Virus record (IMG/VR): IMGVR_UViG_3300017917_001718 | Location: 1-20,543 of that record | DNA: 20,543 nt | Strand: one strand, 5' to 3' | From: a virus | Shown here: in pieces, positions 14,332 to 18,288 of the stretch | Numbering within the stretch: the first letter of the stretch is position 1 | How the letters are laid out: every line of letters begins with the position of its first letter | Position numbers and translations under genes: made by a program | Notes under the pieces: model-generated | What the model was told of the DNA's origin: nothing | The model's database searches: none | What the model saw: the letters and a program-made list of their open reading frames with translations, nothing else

Positions 14332-15090
14332 TTAACCAGTTACCCATGTTAGAGGCATATCACCGGCTTTGTAATTGATTAAGTCTTGTTCTAGCAAATC
14401 TAGCTCTGCTTTAGCTTCGGATTTCAGAGCAGTACCGTTTAGACTAGTTCCTCCTTGAGGGCTAGCAATTTGATTAAACTTCTCACGAGCTTCCCCCAGC
14501 ATCATTTTACAAGTTGCCAAGGCATAATCTTTTAACCACTGACCGGCATAATCGTCCTGCAAAAGATTAAAATCAGGTCTGTAGTTGTATACCCAAAGTA
14601 GCACTTCTTCTTCACTTCTGGGACGCTGCATCAGAGTGAGCTTTTTACTGGTCTTGTTGAATGTAAAGTTAATCTCACTACCGAACATTTTACCAACTTG
14701 TTTTTGGTAACTTGCAAATGCGTAGTATGTAGCTAGCCCGCCCATATTTGTTGCAGTTAGTAAGTAGGTATTAGAGTATGCAAGGTTAAACGGTTCAAAT
14801 AACGTACCTCCCTGACCTCCGCCGGATCTAGAACCAATGCTGCGTCTAAAAATTTGACGAACATTCGTAACTTCCTTAGGCAATGTATAGTCGTTTCTAT
14901 CCACTTCTATCGTCAGAAATGCAAAACTTTCTTCAACTGCATTGCTACTGCGCTGTCGAAACTTGCTCAATGCCTTATCGATAGCAGTATTATAATGCAC
15001 TGGATCTAGTTCTACATCAATCATACCAGATCCCAGCATAGTTTTGCAATAATCTATTACGTGTTGGCGGGCATTTTCTGTTTCAGTCAT
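14332..15090 (-). CDS. gp13: Neck protein (T4 gp13-like)
   Basis: 252 residues. The N-terminus ARQHVIDYCKTMLGSGMIDV then ELDPVHYNTAIDKALSKFRQ is the helical layout of gp13-type head-closure proteins. Next come strands with DYTLPKEVTNVRQIFRRSIG, a Tyr-rich middle, KLTLMQRPRSEEEVLLWVYN and a C-terminal helical bundle (WLKDYALATCKMMLGEAREK). T4 gp13 and gp14 form the neck that seals the filled head and accepts the tail. The open frame extends upstream to a TTG at 15129, but the ATG at 15090 fits the family and follows a CTAAATA box at 5 nt. It diverges from the gp14-like gene, its probable partner. Confidence 0.75.
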   Translation of the reverse strand: MTETENARQHVIDYCKTMLGSGMIDVELDPVHYNTAIDKALSKFRQRSSNAVEESFAFLTIEVDRNDYTLPKEVTNVRQIFRRSIGSRSGGGQGGTLFEPFNLAYSNTYLLTATNMGGLATYYAFASYQKQVGKMFGSEINFTFNKTSKKLTLMQRPRSEEEVLLWVYNYRPDFNLLQDDYAGQWLKDYALATCKMMLGEAREKFNQIASPQGGTSLNGTALKSEAKAELDLLEQDLINYKAGDMPLTWVTG

Positions 15091-15095
15091 AACAA

Positions 15096-15112
15096 TATTT
15101 AGTCGATAAATA
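15096..15112. promoter_or_regulatory. Back-to-back late promoters for gp13 (-) and gp14 (+)
   Basis: CTAAATA on the minus strand (15102-15096) and ATAAATA on the plus strand (15106-15112) are separated by only 3 bp, forming a near-palindrome. The minus box lies 5 nt from the gp13 ATG; the plus box lies 28 nt from the gp14 start, with AAGGAG between. The whole intergenic region is 50 bp. Confidence 0.62.
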
Positions 15113-15127
15113 TAGTTAACCTCATTC

Positions 15128-15133
15128 AAGGAG
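15128..15133 (+). promoter_or_regulatory. Strong ribosome site that points to an ATT start
   Basis: AAGGAG is followed after 7 nt by ATT (15141). No ATG, GTG, TTG or CTG in frame lies between this site and GTG at 15222, 88 nt away. The site therefore decides the start of the gp14-like gene. Confidence 0.7.
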
Positions 15134-15140
15134 AACTAAA

Positions 15141-16346
15141 ATTCCTCGCCTAAGCCTATATAGACCTGAAAAAGGTAACGATTTCAAATTTTTAGATCGT
15201 GCAATTAGCGAACAGTTTCAAGTGGGTGGAACTGATGTGTACCTACACAAGTATTTAGGGCCAGTGACTCCCGAAGATGGGACTAGTACCCCTAGTACAC
15301 CTACAAATACTAACATTTTTGGTGAATTAGGGATACAAGATTTAATATTCATGGAGAACCGAGATAGGCATTACGATCCGGATGTATATGTTATTCGTGG
15401 AATCTATACGTTACAAGATATCGATTTCAATCTAAGTCAATTTGGCCTGTTCCTACAAAACGATAACATCATGATTACCTTCCATCTAAGGGATAGTTTT
15501 GGTGCTTTGGGTAGGAAAATCATGGCAGGGGATGTTATAGAACTACCACATCAAAAAGACGAATATGCGCTTGATGACAGCCTAGTTGCACTAAAGAGAT
15601 TTTATGTTGTCAGTGAGGTTACTCGCCCTGCAAGCGGTTACAGTCAAACTTGGTATCCCCATTTACTAAGGGCAAAATGTGCACCATTAGTTGATACTCA
15701 GGAATTCAAAGAAATACTAGATCAGGATAGCGGTGCAGGAGACGGTAGTACTTTACGGGATTTAATGACAACTTACCAAAAGAATATAGAAATTAATGAT
15801 CAAATTATAGCCCAGGCCGAACTTGATGTTGGTAAAAGCGGCTATGACACAGACCACCTGTATGTTGTTCCATATAAAACTCACGAAGAAGTCGATATTG
15901 CCGATGCATCTGATGTAAATGCTGATGCAAGCATGGATAATCATGCGTTAGATGCTAGTATTATTCTAAATTCTCCACGAGAAAATTTCTATGTCGGTTA
16001 TTTAACTGGGGACGGTGTTCCACCAAATGGTGCACCGTACGGATTTGGTATTTCGTTCCCATCAGATCCAGCTACTGGCCAGTTCTATCTAAGAACAGAT
16101 TATATGCCAAATCGTTTATTTAGATATGACGGAAGGCATTGGATCAAGTTTGAGGATAATGTAAGAATGACAATACGTCAAACTGGCGAAACTCAAACTA
16201 CTGATCCAGATAAGGTCAAAAAGACGCAGAAGGCATCTTTCATTAATAATACGACAACATCTACTATTGCAGGAGAAGTTGTTCCTGAGAAACAGGCATT
16301 GAGCAAGGCATTAAGGAATAAGCTAAAACCAGAGGCAGATAATTAA
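15141..16346 (+). CDS. gp14: Neck protein (T4 gp14-like), predicted non-AUG start (ATT)
   Basis: 401 residues from the chosen start. It opens IPRLSLYRPEKGNDFKFLDR, then FQVGGTDVYLHKYLGP, LGIQDLIFMENRDR, LSQFGLFLQNDNIMITFHLR, LGRKIMAGDVIELPHQKDEY and a TWYPHLLRAKC strand. This matches my recollection of a T4-like aquatic-phage neck family usually starting MPRL. The GG-x-[DE] ... LIF-E order parallels T4 gp14. The first ATG/GTG/TTG in frame is GTG at 15222, which would remove 27 conserved-looking residues. The frame is closed upstream by TAA at 15117. AAGGAG (15128-15133) ends 7 nt before ATT at 15141, exactly where Met is expected. A W-G-type hairpin module lies near 285-330 (GQFYLRTDYMPNRLFRYDGR). 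Confidence 0.78.
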   Translation: MPRLSLYRPEKGNDFKFLDRAISEQFQVGGTDVYLHKYLGPVTPEDGTSTPSTPTNTNIFGELGIQDLIFMENRDRHYDPDVYVIRGIYTLQDIDFNLSQFGLFLQNDNIMITFHLRDSFGALGRKIMAGDVIELPHQKDEYALDDSLVALKRFYVVSEVTRPASGYSQTWYPHLLRAKCAPLVDTQEFKEILDQDSGAGDGSTLRDLMTTYQKNIEINDQIIAQAELDVGKSGYDTDHLYVVPYKTHEEVDIADASDVNADASMDNHALDASIILNSPRENFYVGYLTGDGVPPNGAPYGFGISFPSDPATGQFYLRTDYMPNRLFRYDGRHWIKFEDNVRMTIRQTGETQTTDPDKVKKTQKASFINNTTTSTIAGEVVPEKQALSKALRNKLKPEADN

Positions 16347-16347
16347 A

Positions 16348-16878
16348 ATGTATATCTATAAATTTACACATATCTCAACAGGCAGGTGTTATATAGGTCA
16401 GACTATACAGGATCCCAATCGACGTAGGTCAGAACATATTTCTGATAGTAGACATACTTCTAAAGAGTATCACTTTCATAACGCCTTACGAAAGTACGGT
16501 GTAGATTCATTTACATTCGAAGTAATTGCAACTGCTTCAACTATAGACGAATTAAATTTATTAGAAGAAAAATATGTAAAACAATTTGATTCTATTAATA
16601 ACGGTTTTAATATTAGACAGGCGGGCGGGAACAAACTTCACTCTGCAGAAAGTAAAGAGAGAATGAGCATTTCACAAAAAGAAGCCCATGCAAGGCGTCG
16701 TCAAGAAGGTAAAGATACTTTTACGAAAACTCGAAAAACAGCAGGATGGAAATGGGATAGTACTTCAAAAAAGAAACATTCCGAAACCATGACTCGATTA
16801 GGATCCAATTACCGAGGTAAAACTTGGAAATTAATTGACGGTAAACGAGTTTGGTTAAACAAGGAGGCTTCGGTTTAA
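16348..16878 (+). CDS. GIY-YIG homing endonuclease, free-standing
   Basis: 176 residues. The GIY-YIG core is at 2-19 (YIYKFTHISTGRCYIGQT), with YIY in place of GIY. The catalytic Arg region follows (DPNRRRSEH, about 22-30), then a FHNALRKYG helix and the late Glu region LLEEKYVKQFDS with NNGFNIRQAGG. The C-terminal half holds NUMOD3-like DNA-binding motifs (KLHSAESKERMSISQKEAH; KKKHSETMTRLGSNYRGKTW). Such genes cut recipient DNA and spread between phages, as T4 Seg proteins do. It is wedged between gp14 (1 nt after its stop) and gp15 with no own promoter or ribosome site. It is an insertion in an otherwise normal neck operon, and AT-rich. Its stop TAA is in the same frame as gp15. Confidence 0.92.
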   Translation: MYIYKFTHISTGRCYIGQTIQDPNRRRSEHISDSRHTSKEYHFHNALRKYGVDSFTFEVIATASTIDELNLLEEKYVKQFDSINNGFNIRQAGGNKLHSAESKERMSISQKEAHARRRQEGKDTFTKTRKTAGWKWDSTSKKKHSETMTRLGSNYRGKTWKLIDGKRVWLNKEASV

Positions 16879-16893
16879 CACCGATGTAATAAA
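16861..16893 (+). promoter_or_regulatory. Ribosome site and small hairpin at the homing-endonuclease/gp15 junction
   Basis: AAGGAGG (16861-16867) lies inside the last codons of the endonuclease gene. It is followed by a 5-bp stem (TCGGT 16870-16874, ACCGA 16880-16884) and then an ATG directly followed by TAATAA (16884-16892), a start-stop minimal ORF out of frame with gp15. If the stem forms, the site moves to an effective 11 nt from ATC at 16894. Confidence 0.4.
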
Positions 16894-18288
16894 ATCGACT
16901 ATTTTTACGACGGGCAAGTACGCCGATATTTGACACAATTCATGAATGTCATGAGTAACTTTGCATACAAAGACAGCAAAGGACAGTTGGTACGAGTCCC
17001 TGTTCGATATGGAGATATGACAAGGCAAGTTGCACAGATCATTAATAAGAACAGTGAAAATACAATGCCAACTGCACCGTTCATCGCTTGCTATATTAAA
17101 GATCTGCAATTTGATCGTCCTAGATTACAAGATCCAACATTTGTCAGCAAGATACACATAAGAGAACGTGCATGGGACGAGCAAGGGCAAGAATATCTAA
17201 AAACTCAGGGAAGTAATTACACTGTAGAAAGAATAATGCCCAGTCCTTGGTTAATCACATTTGCAGCAGATATATGGACAACGAATACTGACATGAAGCT
17301 GCAAATATGGGAACAGTTATCAGTGCTGTTTAATCCTAGCTTTGAGATACAAACTACTGATAATTACATCGATTGGACTAGTTTGACTGTTCTAGATTTA
17401 GCAAATCAGACATGGAGTTCAAAAACAATTCCGCAGGGAGTAAGTGAAGATATCGACATATTAACAATGGTGTTCACATCTCCCATTTGGATTACGCCGC
17501 CTGCTAAAGTTAAGAAATTGGGAGTAATTACAAAGATAATTTCTAATGTATATGCCACTGGTGGTGGCACGATTGGATCAGTTTACGATAAAGAAGGTGC
17601 CACTGAGATTTTTGGAGAAATCAGTCCAGATGCTAGTATCACAGTCACTGCTGGAAATTATGATTTACTCGTATTAAACAATAAGGCACATTTGATCAAA
17701 TCAACAGGGCAAGACACCGTAGACGTTACAGATCCTAAAAATATTGCATCATGGCATAAATTATTAGACTTGTATCCAGGAAAATTTACGGCCGGATTAA
17801 GTCAGCTAAGATTTACTCAGCCGGACGATACCGAAGTAGTTGCCTACATTAGTATGGATCCCACTGATGACTCTTGTATGCTTATTAACATAGATACTGA
17901 TACTATTCCAAGCAATACTGTACTATCAGGAAGAGGAACTGTAGACGCTATCATAAATCCAGAAAATTTTAATCCGGACAATGTTGTATCAGGAACAAGA
18001 TATTTGATTTTGGAAGATATCAACGTTCATTCTTATTATAACAATCAGGATTTTGACGGGCCAGATGCATGGAAAAACATGGATGGGTCTAACTTTCAAG
18101 CACATGCAAATGACATTATAGAATGGGACGGTGATAAGTGGAACATCGTGTTCGATTCTACGCTAGAGTCAGAAGTCATTTACATAACTAATTCATATAC
18201 TGGAACACAATATAAATGGGATCAAGGTTCGTGGTCCAAGACATATGAGGGCGTTTATGACGCAAGGCTATGGCGGTTAATACTATAA
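16894..18288 (+). CDS. gp15: Tail completion and sheath stabiliser (T4 gp15-like), start codon unclear
   Basis: T4 gp15 caps the tail tube and sheath and connects the tail to the neck. The N-terminus IDYFYDGQVRRYLTQFMNVM then SNFAYKDSKGQLVRVPVRYG mirrors T4 gp15 (YFYNSSFRRYATLMGDLF ... RVPITYAS). Also present are ERIMPSPWLITFAADIWTTN, IWEQLSVLFNPSF and TMVFTSPIWITPPAKVKKLG. The C-terminal half (about 230-464) is an extension not in T4 and ends with two W-type hairpin units (IIEWDGDKWNIVF; QYKWDQGSWSKTY). No ATG, GTG or TTG lies in frame between the endonuclease stop (16876) and TTG at 16930, and starting at TTG would cut off YFYDGQVRRY. ATC at 16894 is my best guess; TTG at 16930 is the alternative. 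Confidence 0.85.
   Translation: MDYFYDGQVRRYLTQFMNVMSNFAYKDSKGQLVRVPVRYGDMTRQVAQIINKNSENTMPTAPFIACYIKDLQFDRPRLQDPTFVSKIHIRERAWDEQGQEYLKTQGSNYTVERIMPSPWLITFAADIWTTNTDMKLQIWEQLSVLFNPSFEIQTTDNYIDWTSLTVLDLANQTWSSKTIPQGVSEDIDILTMVFTSPIWITPPAKVKKLGVITKIISNVYATGGGTIGSVYDKEGATEIFGEISPDASITVTAGNYDLLVLNNKAHLIKSTGQDTVDVTDPKNIASWHKLLDLYPGKFTAGLSQLRFTQPDDTEVVAYISMDPTDDSCMLINIDTDTIPSNTVLSGRGTVDAIINPENFNPDNVVSGTRYLILEDINVHSYYNNQDFDGPDAWKNMDGSNFQAHANDIIEWDGDKWNIVFDSTLESEVIYITNSYTGTQYKWDQGSWSKTYEGVYDARLWRLIL

Follow-up and report, generated by a model that had tools for sequence, protein, structure and literature searches.

The start codon of a gp14-like neck gene

Where does translation of this phage neck gene begin? 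The window, by which we mean the whole IMG/VR fragment of 20,543 bases analysed here, carries a reading frame that is open from an in-frame TAA at 15117-15119 and in which the first ATG, GTG, TTG or CTG thereafter is the GTG at 15222, as had been noted in a first-pass annotation and as we confirmed on the sequence. A Shine-Dalgarno sequence (SD) nonetheless points to an ATT at 15141. The elements around this codon are:

14332-15090, minus strand: gp13-like neck gene, divergent, ATG start, serving as internal control (PHROG 211, head-tail adaptor; AUG in all relatives examined).
15105-15112, plus strand: late-promoter-like GATAAATA, 28 nt before the start (the same motif lies 4-8 nt before ATG in probably leaderless relatives).
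15128-15133, plus strand: SD AAGGAG, spacing 7 nt (AACTAAA); 66 of the 68 distinct ATT members share this spacing.
15141-15143, plus strand: ATT, the apparent initiation codon (aligned with the ATG of 78 relatives and the ATT, ATC or ATA of 107 contigs).
15141-16346, plus strand: gp14-like neck protein gene, 401 aa, ATT start (N-terminus conserved from codon 2; AF2 model matches T4 gp14).

The product of 15141-16346 is, by its predicted fold, a neck protein of the T4 gp14 type. The best solved-chain match to an AF2 model of residues 2-188 (pLDDT 62) was T4 gp14 (Z 11.5, 9lu6_M), and the model matched the T4 neck complex with a Foldseek E of 3.5e-5. It was structure that placed the protein: no match was found in Pfam or, by sequence, in the PDB, the divergence being too great for sequence, and a BLAST search of isolates, in which all relatives were below 60% identity, did not place it as gp14. 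A PHROG search matched it to PHROG 11591 (virion structural protein). The gene order 13-14-15 is present, with the gp13-like gene (PHROG 211) and a gp15-like gene (PF16724) on either side. Because T4 gp13-gp14 structures have sixfold symmetry (PDB entry titles), few gp14 copies should be needed per virion.

The first-pass annotation had taken AAGGAG with 7-nt spacing to mark ATT 15141 as the start, at the codon where relatives carry Met. The alignment agrees: of the best 80 relatives (71-82% identity), 78 carry ATG here, and the 2 with ATT are divergent (80% and 78% amino acid identity), each having its own GGAG leader. The absence of NTG codons is by itself unremarkable, with a chance of about 0.4 over 26 codons at the NTG usage of this gene. 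The ATT is significant because the N-terminus is conserved, codons 2-27 evolving as coding sequence, and because a non-AUG codon recurs at this position. The window shares with AUU-initiated genes an AUU at a conserved N-terminus, a properly spaced SD, and the lack of an alternative start.

Recurrence of non-AUG starts among relatives

We searched viral contigs for the conserved PRLSLYRPEK preceded by ATH, and separately for BTG starts. The ATH scan returned 107 viral contigs (98 ATT, 8 ATC, and 1 ATA), each with GGAG just upstream, and the BTG scan added 55 contigs that start at TTG or GTG. An SD core lies upstream in all 72 distinct AUH cases; these usually have an in-frame stop no more than about 15 codons upstream and no NTG in between; UUG or GUG accounts for 31 of the 103 distinct SD-bearing non-AUG starts. 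One ATH-start relative comes from a bacterial MAG bin (Calditrichota MAG contig JAJRSO010000066.1), into which a phage contig was probably binned. When other genes were surveyed, AUU starts proved very scarce beyond gp14 and gp15, so these phages do not use AUU generally. A phage initiator tRNA for AUU was also considered, and the window contains no tRNA gene, a weak test given that it is a contig fragment. In our literature search, neither start-codon capture nor a recurrent AUU start of a phage gene turned up. AUU starts are usually counted as near-absent oddities and are cut off by gene callers; here AUU is the normal start in some hundred viral contigs.

These data bear on two simpler readings of the locus. 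One, raised in the first-pass annotation, is a G-to-T sequencing or assembly error in a true ATG, as the ATG of 78 of the 80 best relatives might suggest; but ATT in 98 contigs and ATC or ATA in 9 occupy the same codon, always with an SD leader that the AUG relatives lack, and because unrelated contigs share the ATT we regard an error as excluded for practical purposes. The other places the start at GTG 15222, the first canonical start and the choice of a mechanical ORF list, leaving the first 27 codons untranslated. We consider this very improbable: codons 2-27 of the ATH-start genes show a pS of 0.86 against a pN of 0.19, indicating purifying selection, residues P2, L4, S5, Y7, P9, E10, K11, and G12 are invariant, and the SD points at the ATT. 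We conclude from this comparative evidence (the 107 ATH contigs, their SD leaders, and the N-terminal alignment) that AUU at 15141 is the real start of the gp14-like gene, as first proposed.

Homing endonucleases at the gp14 start

In empty relatives, gp14 is preceded by the late promoter and ACT-ATG. At loci L010, L126, and L163, these elements instead head an HNH endonuclease gene of 221-247 aa, the last codons of which (..KGELKF) contain the SD and AUU of gp14. A domain search placed NUMOD3 above cut-off in L163 and L010, with HNH matches slightly under the curated cut-off. The empty locus L021 and the occupied locus L010 are 90% identical in amino acids and have a common leader, GGGGGCTAAATATAAGACT-ATG; in L010, this shared ATG is the start codon of a 246-aa HNH endonuclease gene, and that of gp14 is ATT. 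An erosion series leads from 247 aa in L163 to 51 aa in L105 and from 241 aa in L352 to 11 aa in L324, with further remnants of 47 aa (L183), 40 aa (L164), and 37 aa (L158), and all five remnants retain the SD and a non-AUG codon. By profile search, an upstream endonuclease or fragment was found in 18 of 96 non-ATG loci versus 1 of 148 ATG loci, and no trace was detectable in 78 of the 96. Of 60 trace-free AUH genes, 29 retain the endonuclease-frame stop, versus 33 of 154 AUG genes, an enrichment based on counts that ignore relatedness. The comparative evidence is strong that HNH endonucleases captured the gp14 promoter and AUG in several loci. Elsewhere, in one locus, an HNH endonuclease is inserted upstream of the late promoter and gp14 keeps its ATG, an insertion without start capture.

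The free-standing homing endonucleases of T4-like phages are likewise intergenic HNH or GIY-YIG genes able to displace promoters and overlap their neighbours (PMC2988022). Here, in contrast, the insertion lies exactly at the start codon, takes promoter and AUG, and hands the target an SD and a non-AUG codon. Such capture would be a route for selfish genes to rewrite the translation of their neighbours.

The window itself has no full endonuclease at this site, but its leader contains a candidate trace:

15121-15153, plus strand: probable 3'-end remnant of an HNH homing endonuclease, frame LIQGELKFLA*, overlapping the SD, the ATT, and gp14 codons 2-5 (residues as in the decayed endonuclease end of L158; erosion series).

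This candidate remnant has 10 residues and the stop in common with L158, and is short enough to fall below profile detection. Leader and start are identical to those of L158 and L094 at 21 of 25 positions. The gp14 codons 2-20 have 82-88% nucleotide identity to these two loci, which falls to 62-64% just beyond, and the rest of the gene is more like the ATG lineages. Such a mosaic 5' end is what homing with co-conversion would leave. We therefore read the window leader as probably the scar of a lost HNH endonuclease, for which the evidence is good but short.

The gp15-like start

The gene downstream of gp14 shows a similar arrangement, with an endonuclease of another family still in place:

16348-16878, plus strand: GIY-YIG homing endonuclease gene, its ATG lying where the gp15-like ATG lies in empty relatives (PF01541; flank comparison).
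16861-16867, plus strand: SD AAGGAGG inside the endonuclease 3' end (from the sequence).
16868-16886, plus strand: covarying hairpin between the SD and gp15-like codon 1; looped out, it would leave an effective spacing of 7 nt (covariation).
16894-18288, plus strand: gp15-like gene (tail sheath stabiliser), probably starting at ATC 16894 (PF16724; conserved N-terminus DYFYDGQVRRYL).

In empty relatives, the gp15-like gene begins ATG-GAC-TAT. In the window, the GIY-YIG gene starts at the ATG right behind the gp14 stop, and the gp15-like N-terminus resumes after ATC 16894 with no in-frame NTG upstream. Apparently the endonuclease captured the gp15-like ATG, and gp15-like translation then probably starts at AUC 16894. 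At two other loci at least, the endonuclease at the gp15-like start has shrunk to the ATG and its last codons. Gp15-like genes with a strong SD close by mostly have ATC, ATT or TTG as codon 1 (seven loci). The hairpin is supported by changes on both sides in 5 of 7 pairs, with 82.5% of cells paired and a covariation score that was reached by 0 of 500 shuffles. It resembles the split ribosome binding sites of T4 genes 25 and 38, where a hairpin between SD and start also shortens the spacing (PMC3014915), but differs from these in its codon 1, mostly AUC, AUA, AUU or UUG, and in the location of the SD within an endonuclease 3' end. Five further loci have the same hairpin leader with TCG as gp15-like codon 1 and no in-frame NTG upstream. 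The probable endonuclease scar, the recurrence of this pattern in the next gene, and the probably leaderless AUG alternative described below go beyond the first-pass annotation.

Coupled changes of start codon and SD

Among the gp14 relatives that start at AUG (120 ATG-start contigs sampled, among the matches listed), nearly all lack an SD, and TAAATA ends 4-8 nt before the ATG in 150 of 155 listed. The geometry of T4 late promoters predicts a leader of about 0-3 nt for these genes, and from this promoter spacing their late mRNA is probably leaderless. The non-AUG relatives, in contrast, have an SD and a longer leader, the distance to the promoter being usually 20-24 nt. With the 14 distinct cases from a complete scan for GGAG with ATG, the 117 distinct SD-bearing starts comprise 103 non-AUG and 14 AUG codons. 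This dedicated scan refuted the notion that SD and AUG never occur together; nearly all of the 14 distinct cases fall in one subclade.

On a tree of 225 representatives, we counted 33 changes between AUG and non-AUG and 32 changes of the SD, numbers that recombination may inflate. In 19 supported independent pairs, SD and AUG changed in opposite directions in about 15.7 and in the same direction in 0 (p about 3e-5), and a separate analysis of start/SD coupling had a similar outcome. As reconstructed here, start codon and SD have switched together repeatedly. The correlation is partly expected, because leaderless mRNAs require AUG (PMC5622118, PMC4611024). The avoidance of AUG by SD-bearing gp14 starts, however, has no such mechanistic necessity. 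Among SD-bearing genes of the same contigs, ATG is the start of the gp13-like gene in 43 of 43 cases, of the tail-tube gene in 27 of 27, and of further genes whose start is unambiguous in 167 cases. The pairing of weak codons with stronger SDs recalls the compensation between start codon and SD described for prokaryotes; in that genome-wide study, however, 1 of 61,358 ancestral AUG starts had changed to AUU, whereas AUU is here the commonest SD-bearing start of one gene (PMC5622118). The roughly 30 switches in the gp14-like gene amount to a natural evolutionary experiment in which selection on initiation rate is directly testable.

A proposed origin and function of the weak start

Our preferred explanation, to which we give a probability of roughly 0.6, joins an SD-placed AUU start to an origin by endonuclease capture and to retention of the weak codon for low dose. 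The present state would probably go back to an HNH homing endonuclease gene that inserted exactly at the gp14 AUG and took over the late promoter and AUG; the 3' end of the endonuclease would have given gp14 a new SD and a non-AUG codon, and later loss of the endonuclease would have left a scar leader as in the window. Translation would then start at AUU 15141, positioned by the strong SD at 7 nt and presumably read by fMet-tRNA. The weak codon would be kept because SD and AUG together would overproduce a protein needed in few copies, and a leaderless AUG without SD would be the alternative state, with a similar level of output. We infer that weak initiation is the selected property and low dose the reason. 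We give about even odds to a broader reading, in which low-copy neck and tail-completion genes of phages have lost their AUG to homing endonucleases time and again and received from these an SD and a near-cognate start, with selection holding two states of equal output in which start and SD co-evolve as a dose setting.

It had been suggested at first pass that a weak start could keep this neck protein at few copies. The suggestion is supported indirectly, in that SD with AUG is rare for the gp14-like gene though one mutation away, and that the gp13-like and tube genes keep AUG with an SD; the effect on dose itself is something we infer. The specific role then assigned to IF3 fared less well. 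IF3 discriminates against AUU, AUC, and AUA as starts and acts against leaderless mRNAs as well, but accepts UUG and GUG (PMC4611024). Both gp14 states could therefore be IF3-sensitive; since UUG and GUG, which IF3 does not discriminate against, fill the same role in nearly a third of the distinct SD-bearing non-AUG starts, plain weakness fits better, and control by IF3 in particular is not supported.

Two other accounts retain the AUU start and differ in how it arose or why it persists. A low-dose weak start might have arisen in the window without an endonuclease, the leader gaining an SD and the start codon weakening to compensate. Most SD-bearing non-AUG loci do lack an endonuclease trace and have ordinary short leaders, and non-AUG codons interchange inside SD lineages; we still think this unlikely for the window, where similarity to endonuclease-tail loci covers the leader and the first 20 codons, and the frame of the candidate remnant is kept. 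Somewhat less probable again is a non-adaptive or immunity scar, in which the endonuclease left a non-AUG codon that persists since AUG would restore the recognition site or since selection is weak. Two endonuclease families leaving non-AUG codons at two genes would suit such an account. The scar leaders, however, are already unlike the empty site and should thus tolerate AUG; bacterial non-AUG starts revert to AUG readily (PMC5622118), yet SD with AUG is rare here; and SD-bearing gp13-like genes keep their AUG. On balance we favour capture by an endonuclease followed by retention of the weak codon for low dose.

AUU also initiates infC (which encodes IF3) and pcnB in E. coli and serves as an internal start in T4 gene 26, which is likewise a phage tail gene. 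The gp14-like AUU differs from these in being the main start of a neck gene, in having evolved repeatedly, in being interchangeable with AUC, AUA, UUG, and GUG, and in alternating with a probably leaderless AUG. Two other phage genes, at loci L083 and L084 (AAGGAGAACTAAAATT leaders; products beginning IPNWNSNFL.. and IPILTCPVP..), also apparently start at ATT, and the leader of L084 ends like an HNH endonuclease (DNCKLKEN*).
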